Below the pieces are notes generated by a model. That model was not told where the DNA came from. It did not search any database and saw only the letters and a program-made list of their open reading frames with translations. 36,977 bases of DNA from a virus: the IMG/VR virus record IMGVR_UViG_3300025012_000204, positions 1 to 36,977 of that record. One strand, given 5' to 3'. Positions 7,988 to 24,568 of the stretch are shown piece after piece (positions within the stretch are counted from its first letter, which is position 1; each line of letters begins with the position of its first letter). The position numbers and the translations under genes were made by a program.

Positions 7988-8313
7988 GCGGAGATTTTCT
8001 CTCTGGCGTTCCACGTAGCTTGTTTACGCAGTATCTCGATCCCGCCGCCGTTGTAGGTGAGCTTAACATCGCCCACATAGTCGCCCTTCGGTGAGTGGTC
8101 GGTAGCGTCAGCCGTATAGGTGATAATGCCGTTGGCCGCGTCCGTTATAGTGGCGTTCTTGCCGGCTTGAGTGATAACTTTATCGGACTTTCGTTGAATA
8201 ATTAGAGTGACAGTCGCAACATCGGTGAGGTCTAGGGCTACCTTCTTACGAGTACAGGTGATGACGTAATTTGGTGCGGTGTTGCCCTCAACCACCTTAA
8301 AATTGACTGCCAT
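7984..8313 (-). CDS. BppU N-terminal-like baseplate/fibre protein
   Basis: 109 residues, the last gene of the late transcript. An opening beta-strand (FKVVEGNTAPNYVITC), LDLTDVATVTLIIQRKSDK, a predicted turn GIITYTADATD and GDYVGDVKLTY match the immunoglobulin-like N-terminal domain of BppU, known from baseplates of phages of Gram-positive hosts. There it joins receptor-binding proteins to the tail. Here the domain stands alone next to adhesin genes, so it may be an adaptor for them. The start overlaps the stop of the LAGLIDADG gene (TAATG). Confidence 0.65.
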   Translation of the reverse strand: MAVNFKVVEGNTAPNYVITCTRKKVALDLTDVATVTLIIQRKSDKVITQAGKNATITDAANGIITYTADATDHSPKGDYVGDVKLTYNGGGIEILRKQATWNAREKISA

Positions 8314-8723
8314 TACGCTATTCCCAGTTTAAGTTTCTTGATTGCTAAAACTATGTTTTCCAACGGGCTAGGATCATAGTCTCTAAAACGATGTCTAGTA
8401 GTGATATGGGCCGCTTTGAGTAGCATTTCGGCTTGGGGTTTTTTATATATAAGGTGGGGTAAGATTTGAGGTAGAATATCGAGTATTTCTTCTTTCCTAA
8501 ATCGTAAGTACCACAGTGAATTACCGCTTAGTCGACTCGTTCCAGCCGAGTTAATTTTCCCGCCGAATTGTTTCTGTATTTCTTTTAAGAACCAAAGGTC
8601 TCGACCGCTAATTTGGAGATGGAGCGTATAAAAATACCCGTAGGGCGGTCTTTCTTTTCGCTTGTAGACAGCAAAGCAGCCTTCGCCATCTAGTAACCCT
8701 GCTAAATAAGCATAGTTCCTCAC
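8313..8723 (-). CDS. LAGLIDADG homing endonuclease, single-motif
   Basis: 136 residues. The N-terminal YLAGLLDGEGCF is the diagnostic LAGLIDADG helix with its catalytic acidic residue; the rest alternates beta-strands and helices (SLWYLRFRKEEILDILPQIL) as in single-motif members, which cut DNA as homodimers. It sits between two fibre genes, is started by GTG without a clear ribosome-binding site, and ends in a TAATG overlap that hands translation to the BppU-like gene. It is not within an intron or intein that I can see. It probably promotes its own spread into related phages by cleaving uninserted alleles. Confidence 0.9.
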   Translation of the reverse strand: MRNYAYLAGLLDGEGCFAVYKRKERPPYGYFYTLHLQISGRDLWFLKEIQKQFGGKINSAGTSRLSGNSLWYLRFRKEEILDILPQILPHLIYKKPQAEMLLKAAHITTRHRFRDYDPSPLENIVLAIKKLKLGIA

Positions 8724-8725
8724 AC

Positions 8726-11071
8726 TTAAACTATAGCACTTTTCGGCCCGGTATCAATGCTAGCCTCGTTAGTTCCTTCGTCGAGCGTAGCTGTAATGCG
8801 ACTACCGTCAAGCGAGGCGTTAATAGTGGGCCCGTCTATCGTGGTGGGTGAACTATCGGTGTCTACCTCTGTTGTTTTTGTACCGGTGTCCACAGTGGTA
8901 GTGATTGCCGGTTGGTCTAAATCAGTCTCGTAGGGTGGCGGCGAAGGCGACGGACTGACGCTGGCTGATGGTGAAACCGACGTACTGGGTGACACTGACG
9001 CCGAGGGCGAGATCGAAGCGCTTGGACTCACGGAAGCCGAAGCGCTACTGGAAGGGCTCAATGAAGGCGACTCTGAACTAGACGGGCTGGCAGAAGCAGA
9101 GGGCGAAGCCGAAGCGCTGGCGGAGCTTGAGGGCGACAGCGAAGCACTGGCACTGGCACTGGGTGAAATCGAGGCGGACGGGCTAACACTAGCTGAGGGA
9201 CTGACAGAAGCAGAGGGTGACAGACTGGCACTCGGTGATAACGAGGCTGATGGAGATAATGAGGTGCTTGGGCTGACTGAGGCACTCGCCGAACTGGACG
9301 GACTGAGTGAAGCGCTAGCACTACTTGAAGGTGATACGGAAGCTGAAGGAGATACCGAAGCTGACGCCGACGCTGACGGACTTATGCTAGCCGACGGGCT
9401 CAATGAAGCACTAGCGCTGGACGAAGGTGAAACCGAGGCCGAAGGTGAGAGTGATGGTGAGGCACTAGCCGAGGGGCTAACCGAAGCGCTCGGTGACACA
9501 CTAGCGCTGGCACTTCCACTAGGACTTACGCTTGCTGACGGACTTAGTGAGGGGCTAGCGCTGCCGCTTGGTGAAACAGACGCAGAGGGTGACAGACTTG
9601 GGCTGGCTGAAGCAGAAGGGCTAACGCTAGCCGAGGGAGAAATAGATAGTGACACACTAGCAGAGGGAGAGATACTGGCGCTTGGGCTGACACTCTCTGA
9701 TTCTGAAGCCGAAGGTGAAACAGAAGCCGAAGGACTGACACTGGCCGAGGCGGACGATGAGGGGCTTATAGACGCGGAAGGGCTGATACTTGGTGACACT
9801 GAAGCCGAAGGCGAAACTGAAGCGGAAGCGCTAGAACTGGGGCTAATACTTGCTGAGGGGGAAACCGAAGCCGATGGGCTAACTGACGCACTAGGGCTAA
9901 CTGACGCACTAGGGCTTACAGAGGCACTTGGGGAGACCGATGATACTTCTGATGGTGAAGCTGAACTTGAAGGGCTTACTGAAGCACTCGCCGAAGCCGA
10001 AGGCGATACACTTGCAGAGGGTGAGACCGAAGCACTGGCAGAAGCACTGGGTGAAACACTGGCCGAAGGAGATACGCTAGCTGATACGCTAGCTGAGGGG
10101 CTGACGGACGCTGAAGGGGAAACCGAAGCCGATGGGCTAACACTAGCGCTGGGGCTGGAACCAAGCTGTAATAATAAGTAACTTCCATCTTCCAGTAAAA
10201 CATTGAAGGCATCTTCTTTTCTTAAAACATCAGAGGCGGCCTCCGAAGGAGAGGGTGATAGGGACACAGAGGCTGAGGGAGAGACAGAGGCAGATAAGGA
10301 CGCGCTAGGAGATGTAGAAGCCGAAGGGCTGATAGATGGCGACTCGCTGGCACTCGGTGATATAGAGGCACTTGGAGAAATACTGGGACTCTCAGAAGCC
10401 GATGGAGAAGTGCTAGCACTTGGGGAAACGCTAGCAGATTCAGACGCACTAGGTGAGACGGATGCAGAGGGCGATAATGAAGGGCTTTCGCTTGCTGATG
10501 GTGAAACGGAGGCTGATGGTGAAATACTTGGCGATTCACTAGCGCTTGGTGAAACTGAAGCCGAGGGGCTGACAGAAGAACCTGTAGACACCAGCGCATA
10601 GATAGCATACATCCCATCAGCGTCTGCTACCGCACCCCCGCCGTAGGGGTTGTTTAGAGCGGTTTGAGATGCCAGTATATCGCTCCCCGCACCGCCAGAA
10701 TCTGCACGGTCAACTCCACTGTTGCCAGTGTGAGCGTCCATTTGTAAGCCGAGCCAATAAGCCGTGCTGGCACTTATCGCCCAATCAACTGTTACACGCA
10801 CCCATCCGCCCGCAGTATCAGAGTTTGTGTTATCAACAAAAAGCCTAACATCTGCTACGCCAGCAGTATTAGAATATAAAGCTACCTCAAAATTAGCGCT
10901 ATTAGTTCCAGCGGCACGATACCAACCTACCTCAGTTATGCTTGTAGCCCCAACAGGGCTGGTATCTTTTGTAACTACAGACGAACCATCAAAAGTAGTG
11001 CTTGTTCCAGCAGGGTCGGCGGTTGGTGCAACGGTTACGAAGCCGCTATTTGTGCCGAGGACGAGAGCCAT
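8726..11071 (-). CDS. Giant Ser/Pro/Ala-repeat virion protein (putative adhesin/fibre)
   Basis: 781 residues. Residues 1-163 form a beta-rich N-terminal domain beginning [16 protein letters not shown]. Residues about 164-714 are almost pure S/P/A with V, I, E or L inserted, in units such as [12 protein letters not shown]. The array is interrupted once (about 277-305) by a short segment with [15 protein letters not shown], a motif typical of phage fibre proteins. The C-terminal 67 residues are Thr/Asp-rich. The repeats likely form an extended, possibly glycosylated stalk. Position in the fibre block and the capsule-like composition point to host attachment. The first 24 residues are duplicated at 11806-11892. 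Confidence 0.75.
8930..10582 (-). repeat. SPSAS low-complexity repeat array (coding)
   Basis: About 1.65 kb encoding residues 164-714 of the giant repeat protein, broken at about 10157-10243. Serine codons from both the TCN and AGY boxes are mixed and the fourth position of each unit varies, so the array is regular at protein level but uneven at DNA level. That suggests selection for the peptide pattern rather than recent tandem duplication. The antisense strand is open over long stretches only because these codons rarely give stops when reversed. Confidence 0.85.
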
Positions 11072-11123
11072 TTCAGGCCCCCTCGGTTAGATTAGAAGTT
11101 TTTTTTTAGTGGTAGTCATTGGG

Positions 11124-11711
11124 CTAGACCTTATATTCCCAAATAACTATCGAGGAATGAGTGACACCTCCAAGATACCTAGTGCCACCGCTACCGTTAA
11201 ATGTAGTAGTCCCAGCGGTGGCGGCATTCCCAGCCCTGATTTTGAAGGTCGTAGCCGAGGTCGTTCCGGCGGTCATAGTGTGTCGTACGATGATTTGATG
11301 CGGTGTTCCGTTTGAGCCAGCAGCCTCCCAGCCAATCGCTAAAGCACTAGCTGTTGTATCTTGAAATAAAGCAGCAACTAGGTTCCCCGTTCCAGCAGAA
11401 CTAGCTAGATTCACTACCGCTTCAATAACAAGTATATTAGTGGTCGCTAGAGGGGTAATTGAACGGGTCATATATTGGTCGCCCTCGGTGTTTTGTGGGA
11501 TTGTATCGTCCAACGGTATGGTAGTTGTGCCTGTTGCAACGCTCGTAGTAAGGGTACTGACCACCTGAACAACTTCGCCAGCAAGTTGCGCATTGCGAAG
11601 CGTAACTTTCCTACTTGCCGGTGTACCCGCAGGGTCAGTAACCGTATAAACTAAGTCATCGCTTGTTGGGGTGGTGTCTTCGATTAATTCGGTGAGTTTT
11701 TGGTCAGCCAT
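11124..11711 (-). CDS. Tail fibre/decoration protein
   Basis: 195 residues. The N-terminus MADQKLTELIEDTTPTSDD followed by LVYTVTDPAGT is the usual opening of phage fibre and baseplate-attached proteins. The remainder is beta-rich with small residues (GTTTIPLDDT, AATAGTTTFNGSGG) and ends in a strand pair, as for a jelly-roll receptor-binding tip. A GGAAGG ribosome-binding site lies 8 bases upstream; an AT-rich TATAAT (11729-11734) overlaps this leader but has no good -35. It lies between the 28-codon minigene and the giant repeat protein. Confidence 0.65.
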   Translation of the reverse strand: MADQKLTELIEDTTPTSDDLVYTVTDPAGTPASRKVTLRNAQLAGEVVQVVSTLTTSVATGTTTIPLDDTIPQNTEGDQYMTRSITPLATTNILVIEAVVNLASSAGTGNLVAALFQDTTASALAIGWEAAGSNGTPHQIIVRHTMTAGTTSATTFKIRAGNAATAGTTTFNGSGGTRYLGGVTHSSIVIWEYKV

Positions 11712-11805
11712 TCTACGTACCTTCCTTTATTATAAGCTATTTACCTCCAATTATCATAACACTGTCATAGAGGCAGGGCGCACTAGGTAGGAACGCAGGT
11801 TTTAG

Positions 11806-11892
11806 TTATTGCTCAGTGGTATTTGTCCCAGCGGGGTCGGCTGTCGGGGCGACAGTTACGAAGCCCGAGTTGGTTCCGAGAACGAGGGCCAT
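11806..11892 (-). CDS. 28-codon minigene repeating the adhesin N-terminus
   Basis: The ORF encodes [16 protein letters not shown], then TADPAGTNTTEQ. Its first 25 codons match the start of the 781-residue repeat protein (start 11071) with one amino-acid change (Asn for Ser). Fourteen codons differ only synonymously. It has a strong ribosome-binding site (GGAGAGG) in the end of the upstream zinc-ribbon gene and a normal TAA stop. It may be a functional peptide (a spare attachment or capping module) or the stump of a second, diverged adhesin allele truncated after recombination. Confidence 0.55.
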   Translation of the reverse strand: MALVLGTNSGFVTVAPTADPAGTNTTEQ

Positions 11893-11893
11893 A

Positions 11894-12388
11894 TTAGCCT
11901 CTCCTAGCCAGAATAAGCTCTTGGGATTTTTTAGAATCTTCGGCTAGTGCTTCGGGTGAAGGGCCGGGCGGATTGAGATAGGTTTCCCACTGCAGTCGTC
12001 CCTTGTCTTTGAGCATTCTAGTGATAACTGGGCTGATGTTGCGGTATTTCCGATGGTATTGCTGCTGGTATTGTCGGACGTGCTCCCTGTTGTATGCCAG
12101 CCAGCGGGCGTAACGGATTTTCAAGCGCAGTCGATGTTTTTGACGATAACCCTTGTTATATTGGCGCATATATTCAAGGTACTTCTCTCTGTTTGCGAGG
12201 TAGTACAATCTACGTTTTTTCGCCAGCCGGCGTTTGTGACGACGATTATATCCGCGGTTTCTAGCGGCGTGGCACGAGAAGCATTCCGATTTGTAAGTAA
12301 ATCCTCGTCTCTTGCGAGCGTCCCTGTTCTTGGGGAACTGCTCAAGAGGCAATTCTTTTTGGCAACTCCGGCAAGTTTTCGTTTGCAT
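11894..12388 (-). CDS. Zinc-ribbon, Arg/Tyr-rich DNA-binding protein (homing-endonuclease-related)
   Basis: 164 residues. Residues 5-45 form a zinc ribbon (CRSCQKELPLEQF ... CFSCH) of the sort fused to phage and viral HNH or GIY-YIG endonucleases. The middle is a run of Tyr/Arg repeats (YLANREKYLEYMRQY, YARWLAYNREHVRQY) typical of the DNA-contacting repeat in those proteins. No HNH or GIY-YIG catalytic core is visible, so this may be a degenerate or non-catalytic member. It overlaps the preceding gene by 47 bases and is followed one base later by the adhesin minigene, suggesting an insertion or recombination site. Confidence 0.6.
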   Translation of the reverse strand: MQTKTCRSCQKELPLEQFPKNRDARKRRGFTYKSECFSCHAARNRGYNRRHKRRLAKKRRLYYLANREKYLEYMRQYNKGYRQKHRLRLKIRYARWLAYNREHVRQYQQQYHRKYRNISPVITRMLKDKGRLQWETYLNPPGPSPEALAEDSKKSQELILARRG

Positions 12389-12548
12389 TATAGCTGACTA
12401 GCTCCTCTTCTAAGTATAGCTTACGCTCTTCATACAGAACCCGCCACTCAGGGGTCAGCGTTAAAGTTTCCAGTGCCAGAGCATAGTAGCCTATTGATAA
12501 AACTAGGTTATCGCGCTTGACGTGGCGTTCGGTAGCAACTTCGCTCAC
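12342..12548 (-). CDS. Hypothetical small acidic helical protein
   Basis: 68 residues from a GTG start. The sequence is helical and acidic in the centre (EWRVLYEERKLYLEEELVSY). It is unrecognised. It lies directly after the holin-like gene and its 3' end overlaps the start of the zinc-ribbon gene by 47 bases, so that later gene may have been inserted at its tail. It is likely a late gene of the lysis/fibre region. Confidence 0.5.
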   Translation of the reverse strand: MSEVATERHVKRDNLVLSIGYYALALETLTLTPEWRVLYEERKLYLEEELVSYNANENLPELPKRIAS

Positions 12549-12555
12549 GAACTGC

Positions 12556-12837
12556 CTACTTTTGCAAAATACTCGGAGCTAGGCCGCTAATATCGATGTT
12601 GTCATTTTTGTGGATGAACCGATCGAGGGCCTTAACGGCTGTACCGATACCAGCTACCAGCAAAAACCCGACACTAAAGCTGGTGCCGGCAATTTGAACG
12701 CGTGCGTCAGCAACAGCCGGGTCGGCTGCTAAACTGATTAGCCACGTACCCACAAGGCCCAAGAAACCGAACCACAAAAACCGCGCACCTGATTTTAACA
12801 CTTCTACGAGCGCTTTAACTGATTGATCGTTGAACAT
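12556..12837 (-). CDS. Holin-like membrane protein
   Basis: 93 residues with two hydrophobic segments: FLWFGFLGLVGTWLISLA (about 20-37) and SVGFLLVAGIGTAVKAL (about 54-70). Between them is a short alanine-rich loop, and after them a charged C-terminus (DRFIHKND). Size and topology, and position directly after an M23 peptidase gene, suggest a holin that releases the peptidase at lysis. AGGA lies 7 bases before the ATG. The family was not identified from sequence. Confidence 0.65.
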   Translation of the reverse strand: MFNDQSVKALVEVLKSGARFLWFGFLGLVGTWLISLAADPAVADARVQIAGTSFSVGFLLVAGIGTAVKALDRFIHKNDNIDISGLAPSILQK

Positions 12838-12850
12838 AATTATTTCCTAT

Positions 12851-13504
12851 CTACGTTAAGTGTTCACTGAGATATTTGATAACTGAATCTTTGGTCGTAC
12901 CAGCCGCTAACTGGGCTTCGTAGTTTTGCGCCAGTTTAGTCATAGCCCAGCTATTCAATCGGCTCCACGGGCGAGCGGTATAAAAGGCTATATTCTGAGC
13001 CGTCGGAGCGCTTCCGGTAACGACCTGAAAAACGTATTTTACATCTTGCTCTGTTGGCATAATTTCCTCACTTTCATTATTAACGTAAAGCGCGGGATTT
13101 ACAAGTGCCCCGTCAACTCTTAGACTGTGATGAACGTGTGCGCCTTTGGCCGCACCGGTTTCACCCATCACTCCAAGTTGCTGTCCTTCTTCCACTGTGC
13201 CAGAGCGAACACTAAATATGGACTGGTGGGCGATATAGGTTCTGAACTTGCTGTCGTTGACGATTGAGTAGTTGCCATTTATAGCGTCATTCCCGGTACT
13301 TAGTGATCCGCTATGCGTGGCAATAGTCTTGCCATCCGCAGGCACATAGTCTATACCAGTATGGAATCCATAGCCAGCACCGGGATATTTAGCTCTTTCA
13401 CTCGCTGGGATGATCGGGTCATTGGGGTCTCGATGTAGAGGATAGTCTTTAACCCAACCATAGGGCGTAGTGATTTGATAAGGCGAGTTTACCGGCAGTC
13501 TCAT
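12851..13504 (-). CDS. M23-family peptidase, endolysin or virion-associated lysin
   Basis: 217 residues. The LytM/M23 zinc site is complete: H48-x-x-x-D52 in GFHTGIDY and H123-x-H125 in GAHVHHSL. Between them are the usual GxxVxxGQxLGxMGxTG turns. The enzyme would cut peptide cross-links in peptidoglycan. There is no signal peptide, so release needs a holin (neighbours on both sides) or virion delivery. The last ~65 residues (from about 150) are helical and may bind the wall. The ribosome-binding site is weak. Confidence 0.85.
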   Translation of the reverse strand: MRLPVNSPYQITTPYGWVKDYPLHRDPNDPIIPASERAKYPGAGYGFHTGIDYVPADGKTIATHSGSLSTGNDAINGNYSIVNDSKFRTYIAHQSIFSVRSGTVEEGQQLGVMGETGAAKGAHVHHSLRVDGALVNPALYVNNESEEIMPTEQDVKYVFQVVTGSAPTAQNIAFYTARPWSRLNSWAMTKLAQNYEAQLAAGTTKDSVIKYLSEHLT

Positions 13505-13508
13505 TCCG

Positions 13509-13760
13509 TTAATTCTTAAGCTCTCTAGCCGTTAAAGCCAGCATAAACATACTTATCGCCACTGAGTAAGCCACTACATTCCTTATAGGTGGCGCGGCGA
13601 AGGTTGTAGCGAATGCTGTAACTATTGCCGAGATTGCCAAAAGCCCCAGCCATAATGAAGAAATAACTATGACAGATTTTCTAAATTGCCAAGCCTTGTA
13701 GAACACGAAAGCGTATAGCGGCAATCGGCTCATAAGAAGCAAAAAAACTGTATAGTCCAT
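13509..13760 (-). CDS. Three-helix membrane protein, holin/antiholin candidate
   Basis: 83 residues, nearly all hydrophobic, with three predicted membrane helices (about 3-22, 29-51, 61-78) and a short charged end (TARELKN). It starts on the stop of the XhlA-like gene (TAATG) and ends just before the M23 gene, so it belongs to the lysis cassette. Class I holins have this topology. With the two-helix protein at 12556 the cassette contains two membrane proteins of holin type, one of which could be an antiholin. Confidence 0.6.
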   Translation of the reverse strand: MDYTVFLLLMSRLPLYAFVFYKAWQFRKSVIVISSLWLGLLAISAIVTAFATTFAAPPIRNVVAYSVAISMFMLALTARELKN

Positions 13761-13990
13761 TATTTATTTACCTGTTGGACTATTAACATTATGGTGGCAA
13801 TCACCGAGCCTATAACAATCGCTACGGTCTTCCAATCCCAGTTAACATTAGAATTGTCTACTATGACGGCTTTAGAGCCGATAATACCTCTTATTTCGTG
13901 GATTTCAGACTGTATGCTACTTAGCTTCTCGTCTAAGTGCCTGACGTCTCCGACTGTCCACTCGTAGGTTTGATTATCACCGCTCGGCAT
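13760..13990 (-). CDS. XhlA-like lysis accessory protein
   Basis: 76 residues: a polar N-terminal coiled coil (DVRHLDEKLSSIQSEIHEIRG) and one C-terminal membrane helix (WKTVAIVIGSVIATIMLIV). This coiled-coil/C-anchor plan is that of XhlA-type proteins, which join holins in lysis cassettes of Bacillus-type phages. The stop overlaps the next start (TAATG), tying it to the 3-TM protein. Confidence 0.65.
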   Translation of the reverse strand: MPSGDNQTYEWTVGDVRHLDEKLSSIQSEIHEIRGIIGSKAVIVDNSNVNWDWKTVAIVIGSVIATIMLIVQQVNK

Positions 13991-13998
13991 AACTCATC

Positions 13999-15729
13999 CT
14001 AGAGATACCCGCACACGGCCCTTATGACTGTCGGCAAGTTAGTGCTGCCTTGTACGGCAAAAGTGCTATTGGTTGAACTGGATATTTTACCCAGCAGAGT
14101 AAAGGTCGTCGCAGCGGTAGTAAGCACATCCGCGTCAGGGCTAGTCATCGTGATAGCAACATTGGGATAGGCGGCAGTATTAGAGGATAGATTGAGCGTT
14201 GTTCGAGGATTGGTTTCGGTCGAAGTGTCAGATGATAATGTTATATTCACTGTCCTAGTGGCCGAACTGCTGTTGGTATGATAAACAGTCGCCCGCAAAC
14301 ATAATTTCCAAGCCCCAACTGGCAAGACTAGAGCGTCGGTCAGGGTGGCGTAAGTAGCACTGGTAGTTGTGCGATCGGCGGCACTTCTAGTAACGATCGT
14401 CCACCTCGCCGGGTCTGACGGAAAGCCGACCGGTATTTTCGAGCCAGAGTAACTTACGTTGCTAAGATTTTCTGCCGGGGCTAGATTCTGGCCAGTATAG
14501 AGCGTGATAGTGGTATTGCCGGTGGCAAAAACAACACCGGTAACTATGCCGTATTCAGTAGCGGCAAACGGGCTATCAGCGGCAGTGGCCGTTGCACTAC
14601 CGGAAGCCGTCAGGGTGTTGGCGTTGGCGGTGCTGTCTACAAAGTCACCAGCCAATTTGAAGTAAGCCACGAGGTTAGTTTCGTCGCCAACGAGTCGCTT
14701 GTGCATATTGTCCAAGACATTCTGCGCGGTGCGTACCACGCTCCATATCCGTACATCGGATATTTTGCCGTCAAAGAAATTGGCACCATTGGCCGCACCC
14801 ACCTGTAGGTTGCCGGCTTGAGTCAATGAAGTTCCAGCCGCACCGGTACTGGTGTTCGGGATTAAGATACCATCAAAATAAATAGTTGCGGCCGCACCGG
14901 ACATATCAAGGGTAGCGGCTACGTGTACCCATAGGCCGAGAGGCAAGGCGTTAGAGGTAGTAAACTCACGGGTGGAAGCTCCGTCACCATAGATAGCCAC
15001 TTGACCGGTGGTATTAACATATAGTCTGAAGCCATCGCTCCCGTCATAGCGTGAGGCGATGTTGTAAGTGCCGCCGTAACTTTCGAGTTTAACCCACGCC
15101 TCGATTGTAAAGTCGTCTGTGAAGCTAACGCCTGCCGGCGAGGTTTTAGAGGCGTACTGGCTAGAGCCAGCTTCAAGGTCGGTACAGGTGTAGCCGCTGG
15201 CAGTAACTCTAGGTAGCTGCAAGCGCATACCGGGCGTGTACTTGGTAGTTTTGTCGCCTGATATAACGTAGGTGAACTCCTTATTACCGGTACTGGCGCC
15301 ATAAGTCCAGCTTTCACCAGTGCCTTGCCAGCTATTCGGATCGATGGCCGAACTAAAATGCCGGGCCTGCAAGAAGCCATCCTGCATAGCCACGCCGGTG
15401 ACAATCGCCTCTAAGTAGGCTGAGACGCTATAAATACCAAACTTGGTGCCGGCGGGCCAGTCTTGGGGTGTAGTCTGAAAAACTCCGCGTCCTTCGCCGT
15501 CGGTGGCGCTGGGACAGCGTACATAATTAGCGCCCTTACTTGTCCAAAAAACCATTTCCGGGGCGTCGCCTTCCGGGTCAATGACACCGAAGCACTGCTC
15601 ATAAGCCGGCATAACGTCCGGGTAAATATCAGTGTCAACAGAGGCCAGCGGTTGCGCTACAGTAGTTTCGTAGTAGTCCTCTGATTGTAAGTCAGCGGTT
15701 ACGGCTGCGGGTAGAACGGGTCTGGCCAT
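13999..15729 (-). CDS. Tail fibre with LamG-like lectin domain
   Basis: 576 residues. The N-terminal ~185 residues are probably a tail-binding part. Residues about 186-385 form a concanavalin/LamG-type jelly roll: FTDDFTIEAWVKLESYGG, LWVHVAATLDMSGAAATIYF and FFDGKISDVRIWSVVRTAQ are characteristic strands of that fold. The C-terminal part is Thr/Ser-rich beta structure. Expected role: receptor or glycan binding on the tail. The ribosome-binding site is GGGAGAG, 5 bases upstream. It follows the ejected-protein gene and precedes the lysis cassette. Confidence 0.75.
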   Translation of the reverse strand: MARPVLPAAVTADLQSEDYYETTVAQPLASVDTDIYPDVMPAYEQCFGVIDPEGDAPEMVFWTSKGANYVRCPSATDGEGRGVFQTTPQDWPAGTKFGIYSVSAYLEAIVTGVAMQDGFLQARHFSSAIDPNSWQGTGESWTYGASTGNKEFTYVISGDKTTKYTPGMRLQLPRVTASGYTCTDLEAGSSQYASKTSPAGVSFTDDFTIEAWVKLESYGGTYNIASRYDGSDGFRLYVNTTGQVAIYGDGASTREFTTSNALPLGLWVHVAATLDMSGAAATIYFDGILIPNTSTGAAGTSLTQAGNLQVGAANGANFFDGKISDVRIWSVVRTAQNVLDNMHKRLVGDETNLVAYFKLAGDFVDSTANANTLTASGSATATAADSPFAATEYGIVTGVVFATGNTTITLYTGQNLAPAENLSNVSYSGSKIPVGFPSDPARWTIVTRSAADRTTTSATYATLTDALVLPVGAWKLCLRATVYHTNSSSATRTVNITLSSDTSTETNPRTTLNLSSNTAAYPNVAITMTSPDADVLTTAATTFTLLGKISSSTNSTFAVQGSTNLPTVIRAVCGYL

Positions 15730-15752
15730 TTACTCTCTCCCTTATGCTTTAA

Positions 15753-18700
15753 TTATGCCCTAAAAGCTATCCGAACTCCACCACTCTTCTTCTGGCCCTT
15801 CGATTTGATAGCTGGAATACCCGCGACTTTACGCTGAAAGTCGGACAGAACCGAATTGATGTCGGGCCGCAGACCAATTTTCGGCGGAGCAGAGATATTG
15901 AATGAGCCGAAGTGCGGTAAAGGCGCTTTGCGCTTACTAGAACTGCCGCCGCCACCGGAGCCAGTCAGGCCAGACTTATACTTGCGATTGGCGATAAAGC
16001 CCTTACTATAAAGCTCATTGTCGAGAGCTATCAATTCGTCAGCTATTTTTTGTGTAATGGGGTGCTGGGCCACATAGCCTGACAGTTCGCGCTTGCTTAG
16101 GGTGTACAGATTGACAACGTCTTCACTATAGTCGGCCTTCACTTTGAGCTTGCCTAAATCGAGTAAGTGCTCAAAGTCACGAGTACTTGATAGGTTGCCG
16201 TTGGCCTTGTCATTCTCATATTTGGCTAGTTCGTAGTCGTAGTTGTTTTTGGGGCTGGCGAGGTAGGCTTCTTTTTTGTCACTTGGCATAGCGTCGACTT
16301 CGGTAAGTGTCTTATAACTGGCCGGTGATAGGTTTTTAGCCAGTTGCAGGCCGGTAGCACTAACACGTAGATAATTAGCTGGATCGAGCTTACCCTCTAG
16401 TATGGCATTCTGTTTAGCCGATAGTTTTTGTGCTTTGCCGGTGAAGGCCGGATCATATTGGCCTAAGCTATACTGGGCCGCGAATTGTTGCTTGGTGGCG
16501 GCCGTGATGTCGTCGAGCACATTACTCAGAGCTTTTTTCTTATCGGTGTCAGAGAGATTTTTCCACGCCGGGTCTTTGAGCATTGTACTCCACGCGTCGT
16601 GCACCTCGCCGCCGATGGCCGCTTGTAGCTCGAACATCTGCTCGTTACTGAGCTTAACTTTTGCGCCGTCAAAGGTCTGATTTTTGTCGACGACGGACGG
16701 CATTACACCCAGCTTGGCGTCTTGTAGACGCCGCAGTTCTTTAATTAGTGGTTGGTCGGCGCCGGAAGCCGGACGCGAACGCGTAGCGTCGAACATCGTA
16801 CCCCAAAAGCCGGCAGTGTTGGGTTTGTTCGCGCCGAAAACATCCTGTTTAGGTTGCAGGGTTTGACGCAGGCCCGGAATACCGGCCTTAATCGCCTCGC
16901 CGGCGTTGTTAATATCACGCTGAATGTTATCAGTAGCCGCCGCGAAACGCTTTACAAGGTTAGGAATTAGTGAGCCGGCGGTGTTCTGAACGAATCGGCC
17001 GACTGAGCGATCGGGGTCAGTCAAGGTTTGCAGGGCTGTCGATAGGCCCCTTAAGAACGACTGATTAGATAGCGACGAGCCGATAGTTGCTGCACCCTGT
17101 GTTACCGGATTTTTGCCCTCTTCCATCGCCTTTTTGATTGAGCCGCCAACGGCCAGAATGGTACCGAACGGCTGTATATAGTTCATCGAGAACCAGCGGC
17201 CGCCGAGCTTAACCGCGAACGGCTGTTTGCCTTCCTGATCCCACAATGCCTGCTCTTTGGGATCGTCGGGATAGTCGAGCGTCAGGTTGCCGCCTTTCAT
17301 CAAGCCGTAGCCCAAACTCATAATGCCGGCTGTACCGAGCGTGGCGTCGCCCAGTGCTTTCGATAAGCGATACTGGTCAAACTCACCGGGCTTACGGGCT
17401 AAGTTAAATATCTCCTTCATCGGCCCTATCGGCGTATAACGAATGGTCATCGTGGCTACCGAACTAGGTACTTTAGCGAAAGGTACGATTACTTGGCCAC
17501 CCGGCAGTTTTTGTATCTGTCGACCGAGCCATCCCAACGCCGTCTGATTACGGAAAGTGCTCTCGTCGGCCGACTGCGTGGCCCGCCTGAATATCTCAGT
17601 CGGCGGCTCTTTGAGAATGCCGTCGATATGGGCCTTAGCCGCCTCACCCCTTAGCCCGGCGTTCTTAGCGCTGGCGCGGGCCTGACTTTGCAGTGAGTTA
17701 CGTAATTCGGAGTACCAAAACGGCATATCTTGAGCGCCCATCCACCTGTAGACGCTGTTAACATACTTGGTTGCCGCCCGACCGGTCTTGCCTTTACCGA
17801 AGTTAAGCTCGCTAAACTGGCCCAAAACCCGCCGGCCACCTTCAAACTTTGGCGCGTAAGCCCGTTCGTCGTAGCCAGTGCGTAGGTTACGAGCACCTTT
17901 TCTACTGCCTTCTTTAAGCCCGACACCCTTGCCGCGCAGAGTGAGAGTTTGCGTGCGTTCACCTTTGAGCCCGATCCGACGGCCTAGCTTAGTTTTACCG
18001 GCCGCCGCCAGCGCCGCGTCGTAGGCCGTCGCCAACGGACTACTTGACAAGTTAAGTAATGCTTTTGAGGTGTTACCGAGCACCGAACCGAGTGTGGTAG
18101 TCGGTGAAGTTAGCAGGCCGGCTCGCCATAGGCCGATACCTTTTTCACCTACCGATGATGGTAGGTGTTGACCAACTATTTTTATAAAATCGTGAACAGC
18201 CAAATCGTGTGCTTCGGTACCGTTTTTAGCCGCTCTGACGCCGTCTAAGCTCGTCTGTAGCTGTTTTTCTATTTCGGGTGTAACATTCACGCCCGCTTTG
18301 CGTAAATCGCGCTTGGCGGCGTACAGAAGGCCAGTAGGCGTACGGTTGGCTAGCAAGCCGAAAGCATTTACTAGTCGGCCCGCGGGGGTACCGTGTGCTG
18401 CAAGCTGGTCGATTAACTCGCTGGCTATGCGGTGGCCTTCTTTCGTGCCGAGAGCGTCTTGGGCCTTCATTAGACTAATAGTGTCGGCGGCGTCTTGGTC
18501 GGTAATCTTAACGGTCTTCTGCTCTAGTACAGTCTTAATACGCTCCGTTTCGGCGCCTAGATCACCACGTGAGACTCGCTGGGCGTGCTCCACAAGCTGT
18601 GCTTCGGTCTTACCGGCTTGAAGTCGCTCTGAGGCCAGTCTGCGCGTCTCTGATGATAATTCAGGCGAGGCTTTGGCTGATTTAGTGAAGCCGGCGAGTG

Positions 18701-21700
18701 GTGGCCTGACCCCCGGCAATCTACCGGCCTTAATTTCTGGCGCGGCGCTTAATGGCTTCGGTTTGGATGGCGCTTCTACAGTTTTGACAGCGACTTTTGG
18801 CGTTTCCTTTAGGCCAACGGCGGCGCCAGAGGTTTTTTTGTATCTCTGAACTATCTCGTCTTGTAGATTTTTAAGTCGATTATTACGTTCTACAACTAAA
18901 TCTTTGAGTTGCTTATAGGCCGGGGTACGCTTGCCTACTAACTTGGCGGATATAGTCAACGCGTTACGTTGCTTGGTGAGGTCGGCGCTGATTTTTTGGT
19001 GCTCTTTAAGCAAGTCGGTGGCATTTACAGCCTGCTCAACAGTGCCGAATAAGCCGGTCTGCGCGTCACGAGCAACGCCGGCCTTTATTTTACCTGACAG
19101 TAGGTTGATGACATTAACGGCGTTCTGACGGCTAAAATTGCCGGATTTGTCGAGCCCACTGATAACAGCCGCTACAGTCTCCGGCTTCATATCTTTTAAT
19201 CGGGCTTGGCGGGCCACTGCCAAAACTTCTTCAGACGGTATAGCGCCAGCCGCGACACGATTTTGTAGTAAGTTCTGGTCTTTGACCACGCTCCATAAGT
19301 AATCGTAGTCTTCAAAGGTGTGGCCTTTGACTAAGTTTTGAGTTTGAACTGATGGTTTTTTACCTTCTGCTACGCTGCCGGCGATGGACTTGGCCATATC
19401 GAGCGTGTTCTCATACTGCAAGCCCTGATTAGCGCCACGCGATATTTGGCGGGCCTGCTCGTCGGTGATGTTTTCGTAAACTCGACCTTTGATTGTCGCC
19501 GGGTTAGGTTTGCCCTCGGCCGCTCGACGTTCTAGGCCGGCCGTTCGAGAGTGACCACCTAAAACAGTGTATTTATCGCCCTGCTTCCACAACAACATTG
19601 GCTGGTCGACTTGGCCTTCGTTGTAGCCAGTCTTATAGACACTCTGCTCGGTAGCTTTGCCGCTTTCAGTAATGCGAGGCTGATATGCTTTTTGGCGAAC
19701 TAATTGACCCACTGGCACATCTTGTTCATTGTACAGCGCACCAAATCGGTCGGTCGCCACTTGACGCTCTTGTTTATTTCGTGCTACAATAGTTTCGGAA
19801 GGAGCCTGTTTTATGGCAGATTTTTCAGTTCCCAGTACTACATTCTTCGATGTCGATGGCGTCCTAGTTAAGATTGTGTCAGATGGCAAAGCCTCTACTG
19901 GCACCGTTGTTGCCACAGGTGCGCCCTTTCCACCCGCTAAAGCATTAGTGGACGGCACCGAGCTTTCACCTGAAGAAGCTAATCGTTTAGCTTCGGCCGA
20001 TTCAGCTTCAGCATAAAGTTTCTGCATTTTACCGTTAAGCTCCTGCAGTTTCGCGCTGTCGACAGTGGTGCGAGCTTCCTTATAAAGTTTATCGCCGTCT
20101 AGTATGCTCTTGGCGCGTATCATTTCAGGGCTGGCGACTATAACTTCGCTAGGCACGCCGTTTGGCCCCACCACATTAACCTTAATATCTTTGTAAAGCC
20201 CGCGTGCCGCCGGCATATTTTCATAGCCGTTTTTAACACGGGTGATCTGATAGCGTCGACCGATATTATCGACTATGCCTTGTAGGTTCTGCGGGTTGTC
20301 GACGACTAGCGTGCCGCGTACAACGTCGCGGACTTTACCGACATTCCCGCCATATTCACGAGTAGTCTTCTCAGCAATTCGCTCGACAGTCTTAATGGGG
20401 CCGGGTCGGTAATCAACCCCAAGACTGGAAGCAATGTCAGCTAAGTCTTTTTGGAAAGCCGCGTCAGCTTGTTGGCCGCTGGCGTTCAGAACACGGCTGT
20501 TGGCCGCTATATCGTTCAGGGTCGCCGGAGTTGCTCCGCCTGCCTGAATTGGAACAGGCTCGAAGCCTTTAGCGGCCGCTTCGACCTGCACAGCTTCTAT
20601 AGGACTAGTGGCCGGCTTTGGCTTTTTGGCAGTCTCCAACGTGACCTTGCCAGTAGCATTATCTACTTTGCCGAAGCCCGGTACGACTGTTTCGTTGGCT
20701 GGCAGAATTGGCGCAGACTTGGGTGGGGTGGATGGGATTTTGGCCCTTGTCCACGACCTTCCTTTGATTAGATCATTAGCAGTCGCCGCACTAAAACCGG
20801 AATAGGTCTGCCCGGTTTCATCTGTAAAGTGAATAGTGCGCCCTTTGCCTGTGATATTTGTAACAGTAACCTTACCCTTCATATTTGATTTGCCATTTGT
20901 GTCTATCACGTCTCCGACTTGTAGTTCTCCCTGTGCCCCCCCTACACCCCTACCTATCGCGCCTATTTGGTTTTGGGCTTGGTCGTATCTCTGTATAGCA
21001 CGTCCGGCTTTTACAGTCCCCCGTCCGGCGAGTCTGGCGCCAGCACCAGCTACAGGCAACCCACCGCCGAGGGCAGTCCCGGCCGCTAGGCCGATACCGC
21101 CCCCAAGTGCTGTACTTTTTAATATGTCTCCGTAGTTAGCGTTTTGGCTGGCCGCAGCACCGCCGCCGTAAGCTGCCCCGAATCCGGCTCCTTGCTGGGC
21201 TCCAACCTTAGCACCCAACTTAATTTTAGTGGCTAACTTCAATCCTTTGGTAGTGGCTTGCGCTGCCCTACCAACCGGAATAAATCCGACGGGGCCTTCT
21301 ATAAGTCCGGTGACAATATCGCCAAGACCTTGTTTGACTTGGCCTCGTCCAACTTTAACAGCACCACCACCTATCTTGAGGGGGCTGTTTATAAACTCCT
21401 CAATCAGACCGGAACCCTTAAAAGTACCTACGTTTATTTTTGGAGCCTTCTGCCAAGCTTTCGGGTTGGTAAAAGTGTCTCTTATGGCTGAAGGCCCGAA
21501 ACGTATAATCTTGTTCAGCAGGCTTTGGTTAGCCGCCGTATTTCTAATTACTGGATTTGGTCTGATCGGGGGGCGATTTTGCGGGACTGGTCGAGGCGCC
21601 ATTGGGCGCGGAGCTACCGGCCGGGATGTCCACCCTTGCCCGCGATCGAAGGGGCTGACGCCGTGATAGGCGGCAGAGGCGGCCTTTTTGAGTTTGTCTA

Positions 21701-21710
21701 ACCACGACAT
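15753..21710 (-). CDS. Giant internal virion (ejected) polyvalent protein with RelA/SpoT-like and ParB-like domains
   Basis: 1985 residues. After a basic Pro/Arg head, residues ~110-225 are Gly/Ala-rich and membrane-active in look. Residues ~413-545 resemble a RelA/SpoT nucleotidyltransferase: KTVERIAEK, VRDVVRGTLVV (D462), the NGY turn, and SEVIVASPEM (E522) before LYKEAR. Residues ~663-760 are ParB-like: VPVGQLV, QPMLLW and YTVLGGHSRTAGLERR. From ~1330 to 1600 is a conserved region of phage ejected proteins with Gly-rich hydrophobic helices; the end is Lys/Gly-rich. It probably enters the cell with DNA and acts as a polyvalent effector and membrane conduit. The linker 546-662 overlies an antisense gene. 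Confidence 0.75.
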   Translation of the reverse strand: MSWLDKLKKAASAAYHGVSPFDRGQGWTSRPVAPRPMAPRPVPQNRPPIRPNPVIRNTAANQSLLNKIIRFGPSAIRDTFTNPKAWQKAPKINVGTFKGSGLIEEFINSPLKIGGGAVKVGRGQVKQGLGDIVTGLIEGPVGFIPVGRAAQATTKGLKLATKIKLGAKVGAQQGAGFGAAYGGGAAASQNANYGDILKSTALGGGIGLAAGTALGGGLPVAGAGARLAGRGTVKAGRAIQRYDQAQNQIGAIGRGVGGAQGELQVGDVIDTNGKSNMKGKVTVTNITGKGRTIHFTDETGQTYSGFSAATANDLIKGRSWTRAKIPSTPPKSAPILPANETVVPGFGKVDNATGKVTLETAKKPKPATSPIEAVQVEAAAKGFEPVPIQAGGATPATLNDIAANSRVLNASGQQADAAFQKDLADIASSLGVDYRPGPIKTVERIAEKTTREYGGNVGKVRDVVRGTLVVDNPQNLQGIVDNIGRRYQITRVKNGYENMPAARGLYKDIKVNVVGPNGVPSEVIVASPEMIRAKSILDGDKLYKEARTTVDSAKLQELNGKMQKLYAEAESAEAKRLASSGESSVPSTNALAGGKGAPVATTVPVEALPSDTILTRTPSTSKNVVLGTEKSAIKQAPSETIVARNKQERQVATDRFGALYNEQDVPVGQLVRQKAYQPRITESGKATEQSVYKTGYNEGQVDQPMLLWKQGDKYTVLGGHSRTAGLERRAAEGKPNPATIKGRVYENITDEQARQISRGANQGLQYENTLDMAKSIAGSVAEGKKPSVQTQNLVKGHTFEDYDYLWSVVKDQNLLQNRVAAGAIPSEEVLAVARQARLKDMKPETVAAVISGLDKSGNFSRQNAVNVINLLSGKIKAGVARDAQTGLFGTVEQAVNATDLLKEHQKISADLTKQRNALTISAKLVGKRTPAYKQLKDLVVERNNRLKNLQDEIVQRYKKTSGAAVGLKETPKVAVKTVEAPSKPKPLSAAPEIKAGRLPGVRPPLAGFTKSAKASPELSSETRRLASERLQAGKTEAQLVEHAQRVSRGDLGAETERIKTVLEQKTVKITDQDAADTISLMKAQDALGTKEGHRIASELIDQLAAHGTPAGRLVNAFGLLANRTPTGLLYAAKRDLRKAGVNVTPEIEKQLQTSLDGVRAAKNGTEAHDLAVHDFIKIVGQHLPSSVGEKGIGLWRAGLLTSPTTTLGSVLGNTSKALLNLSSSPLATAYDAALAAAGKTKLGRRIGLKGERTQTLTLRGKGVGLKEGSRKGARNLRTGYDERAYAPKFEGGRRVLGQFSELNFGKGKTGRAATKYVNSVYRWMGAQDMPFWYSELRNSLQSQARASAKNAGLRGEAAKAHIDGILKEPPTEIFRRATQSADESTFRNQTALGWLGRQIQKLPGGQVIVPFAKVPSSVATMTIRYTPIGPMKEIFNLARKPGEFDQYRLSKALGDATLGTAGIMSLGYGLMKGGNLTLDYPDDPKEQALWDQEGKQPFAVKLGGRWFSMNYIQPFGTILAVGGSIKKAMEEGKNPVTQGAATIGSSLSNQSFLRGLSTALQTLTDPDRSVGRFVQNTAGSLIPNLVKRFAAATDNIQRDINNAGEAIKAGIPGLRQTLQPKQDVFGANKPNTAGFWGTMFDATRSRPASGADQPLIKELRRLQDAKLGVMPSVVDKNQTFDGAKVKLSNEQMFELQAAIGGEVHDAWSTMLKDPAWKNLSDTDKKKALSNVLDDITAATKQQFAAQYSLGQYDPAFTGKAQKLSAKQNAILEGKLDPANYLRVSATGLQLAKNLSPASYKTLTEVDAMPSDKKEAYLASPKNNYDYELAKYENDKANGNLSSTRDFEHLLDLGKLKVKADYSEDVVNLYTLSKRELSGYVAQHPITQKIADELIALDNELYSKGFIANRKYKSGLTGSGGGGSSSKRKAPLPHFGSFNISAPPKIGLRPDINSVLSDFQRKVAGIPAIKSKGQKKSGGVRIAFRA
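19761..19790 (+). promoter_or_regulatory. Antisense promoter inside the ejected-protein gene
   Basis: On the plus strand, TTGACG (19761-19766), 18-base spacer, TACAAT (19785-19790). Its spacer shares TGTTTATT and CGTGC with promoter P3 (6013-6041), and about 25 of 29 aligned positions agree if one base gap is allowed. Such a match between two elements 13.7 kb apart on a phage is unlikely to be chance. AAGGAG follows at 19799-19804, eight bases before the ATG at 19813. Confidence 0.7.
19813..20016 (+). CDS. Nested antisense gene, 67 residues, unknown function
   Basis: An ORF on the plus strand, wholly inside the minus-strand gene at 15753-21710. It encodes MADFSVPSTTFFDVDGVLV and then a soluble, mildly acidic, Ala/Gly/Pro-containing body ending ELSPEEANRLASADSASA. 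Unlike shadow ORFs, it has a consensus AAGGAG at 8-base spacing and a full promoter upstream. It lies opposite residues ~565-633 of the ejected protein, in the low-complexity linker between the RelA/SpoT-like and ParB-like domains. It is perhaps a moron-type gene inserted in frame. Role unknown; an immunity function for the neighbouring domain is only a guess. Confidence 0.6.
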   Translation: MADFSVPSTTFFDVDGVLVKIVSDGKASTGTVVATGAPFPPAKALVDGTELSPEEANRLASADSASA

Positions 21711-21721
21711 AGGTTAGCCCC

Positions 21722-22789
21722 CTACACTACTGGCACTGGTTCTATTGTTGCGCCTGAGCCGGTTTGTGCTAATAGTTGGTCGAAGTAGTCGATCCACGCT
21801 TGGTCGTTACCAGCGTCGGTAGAATTGTTGTTGATGATAGTCTCAGCGATAGCCCGTTTGGCGTCAGGCGGTGCATTGACGCCGGATAGTTTGATAAGCT
21901 GGGCTTTGAGTGCAGCCGACCCTTGCTCTTGCTTCGGCGTGATGGCATTAAGGTTAGCGACATATTCGCCTTTTGTCCCTAAGCCGGCGTTGGCAATACG
22001 GAGATTGCCGAGCGCCTGATTGACAGCGTCAGAAATAGTCTGTAGGTCAGAGACAGTGTTGTAATTATTGACATCGTAGTTGGGCTTGCCGGCCGCAAGT
22101 TGGGCTTTAGTGGTGGTGGCATACTGGCCAACATCGGCAAGGTCGCCCGTTTGGGCTTCGCCTAGTTGCCTAGTGGCAGTATCGAAAGCGTCTTTGGCAG
22201 CGCCTTGCTGAACGGCAGTATAAGAGCTATTGCCGGCACCCTGTCCAAACATAATGTCGTTAATCGTCCGGGCCGTGTTACCGAAATTGGTCTGAAGATT
22301 GCCCTGCTGCTCTCCGTAATTTTTGATAATATCCTGCTTTTTTTGAGCCGCCATAGTGTCAACGCGACCGACGACGTCTTGGAAGGCTTGATTAAACAGA
22401 CTCATAAGCCCAGTAATTGAATTACGAAGGTTGTTGATAGCCGTTGGGTCGGTGTTTGGGTCATAAGAGCCAGAGCCATCGTATAAACCGCTATCCGGTA
22501 CTGCTGTAGTGTCGGACTGAGCGACGCCCGTTTCACCGCTACTTGTCGGCGGAGTAACTGTCGTCCAGTTTGCGCCACCGCTAGGGCCCTGATTCCAGAT
22601 TTTTATAGGATTTGTGGGCCCCCTATAAATAATGTTAGGATTTGTAATTGAGTGACCAATAGACGTTAGACCAGAAGCCGTCCTATTGGGTAGTAGACCA
22701 CCGGCCGAAGTGAGGGTACCGGCTAATTGCGAGCCCCATCCTACCGGTTGGGCTACGAAATGTTTGGCCCTATCCCATATTCCAGCCAT
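21722..22789 (-). CDS. Internal virion protein (smaller ejected-protein candidate)
   Basis: 355 residues, just upstream of the giant protein and downstream of the tail hub. The N-terminus is basic with Gly-rich turns. Residues ~110-290 are helical, Gln/Asn/Ala-rich and likely coiled coil (NNLRNSITGLMSLFNQAF, AAQKKQDIIKNYGEQQGN). Such helical proteins next to the large ejected protein are common in podoviruses and build the channel or core. The AGGA ribosome-binding site is 5 bases before the ATG; a 13-codon ORF with its own ribosome-binding site lies in the leader. Confidence 0.6.
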   Translation of the reverse strand: MAGIWDRAKHFVAQPVGWGSQLAGTLTSAGGLLPNRTASGLTSIGHSITNPNIIYRGPTNPIKIWNQGPSGGANWTTVTPPTSSGETGVAQSDTTAVPDSGLYDGSGSYDPNTDPTAINNLRNSITGLMSLFNQAFQDVVGRVDTMAAQKKQDIIKNYGEQQGNLQTNFGNTARTINDIMFGQGAGNSSYTAVQQGAAKDAFDTATRQLGEAQTGDLADVGQYATTTKAQLAAGKPNYDVNNYNTVSDLQTISDAVNQALGNLRIANAGLGTKGEYVANLNAITPKQEQGSAALKAQLIKLSGVNAPPDAKRAIAETIINNNSTDAGNDQAWIDYFDQLLAQTGSGATIEPVPVV

Positions 22790-22888
22790 TTTGGTTCCTG
22801 TTCGTAGTCATCTTGTTTACCTCTAGCGTTAAGTAGTCGGTTTTACTATTTTCCCTCTGCGCTGTGATTGAGGTTATGCCTTGCTTAA

Positions 22889-22917
22889 ATAATACACGCA
22901 TTTTAGTAAACTCTCAA
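22889..22917 (-). promoter_or_regulatory. Leftward promoter for the ejected-protein genes
   Basis: On the minus strand TTGAGA (22917-22912), 17-base spacer, TATTAT (22894-22889). The -35 lies in the last codons of the tail hub gene. A start near 22882 leaves a leader of about 90 bases before the ATG at 22789. It would boost the internal virion proteins relative to the hub. Confidence 0.6.
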
Positions 22918-24567
22918 CGCACTATCGAAAGTGCTCCGTCCGTAAGGTCGGTAGCCAAACTCTAAACCGAGCAGTACAAAGTTCTCATTGACGTTAGAGT
23001 TAGCGACTTTTACTTTAATTGCTCGACCGGGTTGGCTCAACTCCGACAAATCTATTCTTATGGGTATGTTGGTGGTGGTGCTTGAACTGTCGCCGACGCC
23101 GCTCTCACTGGCCCCGCCAAATAGCGTTTTACCCAGCAGACCGCGCCCCATACCGCCGGCGAAACGGGTACCGGGTATAGTTTTAGTCAGGCTGGCTTTT
23201 GAGCCGTCAATAGTGATAGTAACGTCTACCGAGCCGGAGAGTTGGCGAAACAGCAGGGTTACGTCTATAAATCGTTTGTACAGGGCCCATTTGCCAAAGT
23301 CATAACTTTTACTCTCCCAGAACATTGCGATAGCGTTAGTGCCGTGAGCATAGCCAGTGGTTTGCTTCCACACTTTCGGATCGTTTTCGTCGGCGTAGTA
23401 GAGGTGTTCCTCATTGTCGGCACCGATGAAGGCCGTAAAAGCGTTAGCTTGGACGTTGTTATGTGGAAACCACGCGCCATATTGCCGCTGATAGGTTACT
23501 GCCCGGTTGTTCATCGCAGCGTTACCGACAGAAATAGCACAGTGGTAAACATTATCAAACCAGATACCGGAAGACTTGTCGAGGTTGGTTGGAGTGATAG
23601 ATTTTACCAACGGCCGAAGCTGAATAGACAGCTCGTTGTGGCGAAGCTGGTTAAAGAAGTTCTGCTGGGTGCCGAAAACGTACCAAGCGCGCCGGCCCAA
23701 AAAGATGATGTCGTTGTCGGAACTGTCAATACTCCAATGACTAACGCAACCGACGGAACTGGTTACAAGGTTTATGGCTGGGTTGCCGTTGGCGTCAAAG
23801 AGCATTGCGTAAATGGCTCGCTCTTTGACGATAATAAGCTGCTCGACATATTTGCCTAGTCCGGTAATTTTATCGCCGTCGTCAAGCGCGATGTCGATGT
23901 AGGCGGCGTCAGAGCCGGCAAAGGTACTAGCGCCGGGATGAGTGTTGGCGTCGTAAACACTGTACGGCCCGGTGCCGGTCGGATTGGTGTTAGTAAAATC
24001 ACCGGCGTCTATGGGTGAACTGATATAAAGCCGGTTGGGATGTTCAGCCACACCCGATACGATCTGTTTGTCGGAGTAGTAAACGCCAAAAGCCCCGCGG
24101 ACGGTGGTAGTGGGCCGCGAAGCCGTCGTACCAAGTAGTTTTGTACCGCTGTTAACACCATTCCACACCCACAAGGCCCCGCCAGCTTGCACGCCACAGA
24201 CCTTAGCCGTGGTGCCGAAAGTTATACCGCCAGCGGCGGTTTGCCAAACGCTACCCGATAGATACTTGAGCACTAAGTCGGTACTGTCGATAGTTACAAG
24301 TGTGCTGTCCGAGCCGGTCGGATAATAGCTCATAAGACCGCGGGGAGCGCCAGTTAGTCCGGTGCCAACCTCTTCCCAGCCGAATGGCTTAGAGACAGAG
24401 CCGGTCTCGACTATAAAAGCGTTCATCGCCGAACTGGCTTCGCTGTCGCCTATAAACTCTTCGGAGCCGAACAAGTCAAGCCCCTTGCCCGGATTGGTGT
24501 AGCTTCTATCTTGTACAGTGGAGCGGCGTCGGCCGCGTGAGCGAACGCCTGATATTTTCAGGCTCAT
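22903..24567 (-). CDS. Tail hub beta-propeller protein (P22 gp10-like stabilisation protein)
   Basis: 554 residues, beta-rich throughout. Repeated blade-like strands are visible: RGLMSYYPTGSDSTLVTIDS, GGALWVWNGV, DKITGLGKYVEQLIIVKERA and IFLGRRAWYVFGTQQ, with a conserved Phe/Trp-rich finish (KWALYKRFIDVTLLF). Podovirus tail hubs of the gp10 type follow the adaptor gene and have about this length, and here the adaptor is directly upstream with two bases between. It closes the head and links adaptor to tail needle or fibres. The family call is by composition and synteny. Confidence 0.7.
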   Translation of the reverse strand: MSLKISGVRSRGRRRSTVQDRSYTNPGKGLDLFGSEEFIGDSEASSAMNAFIVETGSVSKPFGWEEVGTGLTGAPRGLMSYYPTGSDSTLVTIDSTDLVLKYLSGSVWQTAAGGITFGTTAKVCGVQAGGALWVWNGVNSGTKLLGTTASRPTTTVRGAFGVYYSDKQIVSGVAEHPNRLYISSPIDAGDFTNTNPTGTGPYSVYDANTHPGASTFAGSDAAYIDIALDDGDKITGLGKYVEQLIIVKERAIYAMLFDANGNPAINLVTSSVGCVSHWSIDSSDNDIIFLGRRAWYVFGTQQNFFNQLRHNELSIQLRPLVKSITPTNLDKSSGIWFDNVYHCAISVGNAAMNNRAVTYQRQYGAWFPHNNVQANAFTAFIGADNEEHLYYADENDPKVWKQTTGYAHGTNAIAMFWESKSYDFGKWALYKRFIDVTLLFRQLSGSVDVTITIDGSKASLTKTIPGTRFAGGMGRGLLGKTLFGGASESGVGDSSSTTTNIPIRIDLSELSQPGRAIKVKVANSNVNENFVLLGLEFGYRPYGRSTFDSALRVY

Positions 24568-24568
24568 T

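Follow-up and report, generated by a model that had tools for sequence, protein, structure and literature searches.

A 28-codon open reading frame in a viral genome record, referred to here as the stub, is probably what recombination has left of a second adhesin allele: the 5′ end of a diverged version of this modular phage gene, cut off from the rest. The window analysed is an entire IMG/VR virus record of 36,977 bases, which is possibly a genome fragment. The stub lies on its minus strand (11806–11892), and its translation is homologous to codons 1–26 of a 781-aa adhesin-like protein (8726–11071, minus strand). This protein consists of an N-terminal β-sandwich domain (the N-domain; first 165 codons, 10577–11071, minus strand), a long SPSAS-type repeat and a short C-terminal part.

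The frame, start codon and Shine–Dalgarno site of the stub are all intact, with no frameshift and no sign of decay. As read from the sequence, its ATG lies one base past the stop codon of the upstream gene, and an AGGAG motif (11901–11905, minus strand) precedes it with an 8-nt spacer, so that the 28-residue peptide may still be produced. The preliminary description of this DNA had named frameshifts and a missing ribosome-binding site as signs that would speak against a selected minigene; in the window, both the frame and the AGGAG are preserved. The degenerate motif occurs at exactly two places in the window, the starts of the stub and of the adhesin (none expected from 100 shuffles), and a search of the whole record with the 28 residues gave a match at E 4.7e-10. 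The stub also matched the segment profile of the N-domain family (domain E 1e-14) and has the conserved first segment, GTNxGFVxxAPxxDP. The complete domain of ~160 residues, with its later strands, is absent from it, as the 28 codons are followed by 94 nt without family homology. Judged by its sequence, the stub is a fragment, not a member, of the GTNxGFVxxAP N-domain family.

The homology ends abruptly, at around codon 26. Local alignment of the 94-nt spacer after the stop codon (11712–11805, minus strand) with 52 family sequences gave a score of 24, compared to a shuffle mean of 22.3, and 29 of 100 shuffles scored as well; the stub itself, as a positive control, scored 69. With the score at shuffle level, both a frame that continues past the stop and a degraded rest of the domain within the spacer were rejected. 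A leader or attenuator was also rejected, as the RNA fold of 11690–11920 had a z-score of −1.35 and 20 of 200 shuffles folded equally well. No terminator-like site was found on the minus strand between 11000 and 12500. A sigma-70-like promoter match lies at 11757–11729, ahead of the gene for a 195-aa protein, and the region holds 2 promoter-like sites where 1.3 are expected.

Compared codon by codon with the resident adhesin, the stub has 24 of 25 identical residues over codons 2–26. Fifteen of codons 1–26 differ, 14 of them synonymously and one non-synonymously (N24 in the stub, S24 in the adhesin; N24S), which reproduces the 24 of 25 residues after Met and the 14 synonymous-only codons given in the preliminary description. 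Over the 26 codons dS was ~1.58 and dN ~0.065, and 11 of the 26 codons were identical, where 6.3–7.4 are expected under random synonymous choice. As dS is ~1.6 and codon identity only slightly above random, the stub, on its codons, is not a recent duplicate within the genome. The earlier wording, a copy of the adhesin N-terminus, is thus right in the sense of homology but not if a recent in-genome duplicate was meant. One could still imagine that the adhesin start was duplicated within the genome and that silent sites were then driven apart, because recombination between identical direct repeats at a distance of 821 bp would remove the 195-aa gene. The direct-repeat geometry (an 83-nt pair, 76% identical, spacing 821) fits this, as does a YqaJ/RecE-like recombination exonuclease carried by the phage (2490–3233, plus strand; phrog_149, phrog_434; YqaJ E 2e-17). 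However, the unchanged residues would then require selection on the peptide as well, and a 17-nt run that the stub shares with another record (L007, below), and not with the resident adhesin, points to an outside allele. We regard such a duplication as highly improbable.

To place the stub among its relatives, the N-domain family was surveyed. Relatives of the adhesin N-domain were present in 24 viral contigs, none of which held a second copy, and a scan for the GTNxGFVxxAP pattern returned 54 stretches in viral_contigs and 31 in genome_contigs. A profile of the first 22 alignment columns was then run on 153 sources, leaving out the window-derived loci L001–L003. It gave 79 matches at E up to 1e-3. 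After removal of the window's own two, of L082 and L108 (which lack the rest of the domain) and of 10 second views (loci on contigs already counted), the family outside the window comprised 65 records, 60 from IMG/VR and 5 genome contigs. L025 and L027, which came from the 24 contigs and cover the domain's end only, stand outside the 65. Counted from the start of the motif, the frame remains open for 137 residues or more in 63 of the 65 other records; in the remaining two, L042 and L064, it is cut off by the end of the contig.

A stub ended by a stop codon, at the same site or elsewhere, was found in 0 of these 65 records, so the survey that the preliminary description had proposed for a conserved minigene came back empty in collections that may lack the closest kin of the window. 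That description had given relatives in which the frame continues into a full adhesin as the observation that would argue for simple truncation; in 63 of the 65 records the segment continues into a full domain. One candidate for a second stub, L082 (Synechococcales), has 28 residues after the motif but neither a MALVL-like start nor any match past AP; the locus had been fetched by that very pattern and was judged a chance match. The DNA-pattern matches L035, L075, L078 and L080 sit in unrelated proteins. Short/long pairs within L129, L066 (without its partner) and L082 gave nothing convincing to suggest that other genes commonly leave stubs too.

The first segment of the N-domain is under strong constraint throughout the family. 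In a 47-sequence alignment, mean pairwise identity was 70% for residues 1–22, 25% for residues 23–36 and 40% for residues 37–160. Residues 1–22 are conserved more strongly than any other part of the domain, and a low dN would therefore be expected in any full-length allele. The silent pattern is mostly explained in this way, because full-length ancestors were constrained in the first segment while silent sites saturated. Purifying selection, as claimed in the preliminary description, accordingly holds for the lineage as a constraint on the parent domain, and is unproven for the stub since its truncation.

The fold predicted for the N-domain places this segment at the start of a larger structure. 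An AlphaFold2 model of the window's N-domain had a mean pLDDT of 91.4 (91 for residues 1–10, 96 for residues 11–20 and a lowest value of 72 at 141–150). In the model, the stub segment is predicted to be the first strand region of a lectin-like β-sandwich domain of ~160 aa, of which it is an integral and confidently placed part. VIA-align matched the model to the lectin-like domain of Cwp84 (Z 13.0), a baseplate protein of phage phi812 (Z 12.5) and a capsid protein of cyanophage A4 (Z 12.4). These domains share the fold over 139–140 residues with an rmsd of 2.7–3.0, but sequence identity is 8–12%, the shared fold shows no function and the stub covers the first segment only. The top PDB fold matches align from residues 6–13 onward. 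Because TM-scores from Foldseek were weak (~0.34–0.57 among the first ten PDB matches), the modelled fold class is firmer than any single kinship. No sequence relative of the N-domain was found in the PDB. Four of the 47 family members matched Pfam DUF4082 at E up to 1 (best 4.6e-5), while the window's own N-domain did not match.

The segment is also not confined to protein termini: in L059, L076, L084 and L099 it is preceded by 207 to 986 open codons of the frame. Of these, L059, L076 and L099, but not L084, have a shared lead-in ending in LDRHA or LDKHA before the same β-sandwich domain; L084 and L099 are archaeal genome records. These internal occurrences in longer proteins, together with the place of the segment in the predicted fold, weaken the idea of a terminal docking tag.

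What, then, of the near-perfect agreement in residues between the stub and the adhesin? Over codons 2–23, 22 of 22 residues agree despite 13 synonymous differences, and the identity extends to positions that vary in the family (S9, V14, T17, A18 and A21). None of 1035 N-domain family pairs has fewer than two residue differences, and among the 491 pairs of similar silent divergence just two have as few as two. The 1035 pairs were formed from 45 fetched sequences plus the adhesin; L088 was excluded as a pattern match in an unrelated protein, and L010, L011, L018, L021, L024, L083 and L106, together with near-identical duplicates, are absent from them. We attach no probability to the 22 of 22 identity, because the family pairs lack independence and the stub came to attention by its striking look. 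The identity could reflect two alleles fitted to one host and one virion, the free peptide having no role. It could also reflect selection on the peptide. Codons 1–22 tolerate only ~2.4 neutral changes without a residue change at P 0.05; therefore, if there is no selection on the peptide, an origin as a recombination remnant needs the truncation to be recent.

A functional peptide kept by selection is the main alternative, and one that we consider unlikely. In it, each mechanistic step of which we infer, the first strand segment of the adhesin, present as a free peptide, would occupy the same virion partner site as the N-domain and there serve as cap, as filler or to regulate assembly, with its stoichiometry set by translation coupled to the upstream gene. 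The residue match, closer than in any family pair, the good AGGAG site, the one-base coupling and the lack of decay are in keeping with this. Set against it are the 0 of 65 family records that carry a stub, the integral position of the segment in the modelled domain and its occurrence within longer proteins of at least four records (which leaves no dedicated terminal docking tag), the loss of most strands of the sandwich from a 28-residue fragment, and the position of residues 24–28 in the variable region of the family. The useful docking or capping peptide put forward in the preliminary description loses ground on the same observations and on the constraint on the parent domain, and keeps in its favour the residue match, which no similarly diverged family pair equals. 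A more definite proposal, to which we give a distinctly low likelihood, makes the stub a genuine microprotein of the phage: the best-conserved segment of the adhesin would be made as a separate peptide through translation coupled to the upstream gene, its residues would be held identical to those of the adhesin by a common virion partner, and it would serve as an assembly cap or competitor setting the number of adhesins mounted.

Signs of mosaicism in the adhesin gene itself are consistent with an exchange of alleles. The longest exact run between the stub and L007 is 17 nt, compared to 11 nt for the next best of 46 sequences; by recoding, the chance of such a run is 0.001–0.005 for that pair (L088, the match in an unrelated protein, is still counted among these 46 and among the sources for codon usage). 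Between the adhesin and L007, identity is 61% in nt 1–36 and rises to 91–93% in the remainder of the domain (Fisher p 1.2e-6). A runs test on the three-way codon pattern of stub, adhesin and L007 was borderline (9 runs of 18, p 0.048), so the case for a mosaic rests mainly on the adhesin–L007 contrast. This contrast suggests that the 5′ segment of the adhesin gene was an earlier joining place of alleles.

L007, L008 and L028 (in IMGVR_UViG_3300025324_000016 and 3300002121_000046) have N-domains with 93–94% residue identity to that of the window. In 3300025324_000016, a 59-residue stretch of M23 peptidase that is 90% like the window's lies ~21 kb from its N-domain gene, and comparison of the two records suggests that the M23 stretch and the N-domain came to be shared through separate exchanges. 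The window phage shares little else with other carriers of the N-domain, which therefore behaves as a mobile module.

Just upstream of the stub is the gene for a 164-aa zinc-ribbon protein (11894–12388, minus strand), which the preliminary description had called simply a zinc-ribbon gene and which is endonuclease (Endo VII)-like (phrog_2340 endonuclease, E 2.2e-7; phrog_1035 endonuclease VII, E 5.1e-5). Just downstream of the adhesin, beginning two bases after its stop codon, is the gene for a 136-aa LAGLIDADG/HNH-annotated endonuclease (8313–8723, minus strand; LAGLIDADG_1 E 1.6e-7, phrog_5046 E 1.8e-17). The stub–adhesin module is thus bounded by two endonuclease-like genes. Between the stub and the adhesin lies the gene for the 195-aa protein (11124–11711, minus strand), which starts MADQKLTELIEDTTPTSDDLVYTV and has a weak match to the Pgp3 C-terminal domain, under the Pfam cut-off. 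Viral contigs contain 43 relatives of it, which for the most part align only from about residue 42, and these alignments suggest that its start and its C-terminal domain are separate modules. Two of its relatives, L055 and L097, also carry the adhesin N-domain. Elsewhere in the window, the C-terminal part of a 541-aa protein with weak tail-protein matches (27608–28195, minus strand) resembles the SPSAS-type repeat of the adhesin (66% over residues 364–568). A 305-codon open frame antisense to that repeat (9264–10181, plus strand) is likely a by-product of repeat composition.

Searches of viral_contigs, from which records very close to the window may be missing, found no relatives of the gene upstream of the stub, none of a 355-aa protein, and no syntenic relative, intermediate or donor genome with a full-length allele at the stub site. 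A terminase search returned one 14.8-kb record, in which the N-domain is absent. In a collection of 50,697 annotated phage records nothing matched the window DNA from 8000 to 25000, the N-domain, the stub or the 195-aa protein, and a literature search found neither the motif strings nor a paper on the N-domain. An assembly or binning artefact, in which the stub would mark a false join of two related phages in the metagenome, has to be considered, since the window is a single IMG/VR-type virus record whose read support cannot be inspected. According to the gap list, however, the genes flanking the stub form a continuous, tightly packed block in one orientation, and we consider an artefact very improbable indeed.

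We therefore return to recombination as the favoured origin. An allele of the adhesin family would once have stood downstream of the endonuclease-like gene. Recombination would then have struck in the variable loop behind the conserved first segment, exchanging all that followed codon 26 or so for unrelated DNA, and a stop codon would have fallen two codons further on. The ribosome-binding site and start would have survived, and most of the silent divergence with residue identity would have accumulated while the allele was full length. The flanking endonucleases and the phage's own exonuclease perhaps helped, although a role for the endonucleases is a guess from adjacency. As a recombination fragment should, the stub has relatives that run full length across the break and unrelated sequence immediately after the point where homology stops. 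Decay within the stub is not seen, and a recent event need not show it. Of the two explanations offered in the preliminary description, a remnant of a diverged full-length allele cut short by recombination gives the best fit.

On this origin, the stub would be a small trace, caught in the act, of phages trading surface-protein modules, with the break just beyond the stretch of the domain that is conserved best. For short duplicated ORFs, it is further a warning against dN/dS-like arguments, which can mislead where the parent domain is strongly constrained. If the peptide were functional after all, it would be an unusual microprotein made from the first strand of a domain.

Two known systems offer comparisons. 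In T4-type phages, endonuclease-like genes next to a variable locus are proposed, in passages of one report, as possible mediators of genome diversification (PMC2993671). As in the homing-endonuclease mosaicism of those phages, endonuclease-family genes adjoin the exchanged module here, although adjacency of genes is the sole evidence in the present case. The second system is the mosaic exchange of tail-fibre and side-tail-fibre genes, where, according to passages of another report, small gene fragments are exchanged far more often than complete functional modules (PMC3945230). The resemblance lies in modular surface-protein genes common to otherwise unrelated phages, in junctions within genes and in the trading of short fragments. 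Analyses aimed at other features turned up no invertase or site-specific system here. Unlike in tail-fibre mosaics, a stop-terminated 5′ stub persists here beside its full-length paralogue.
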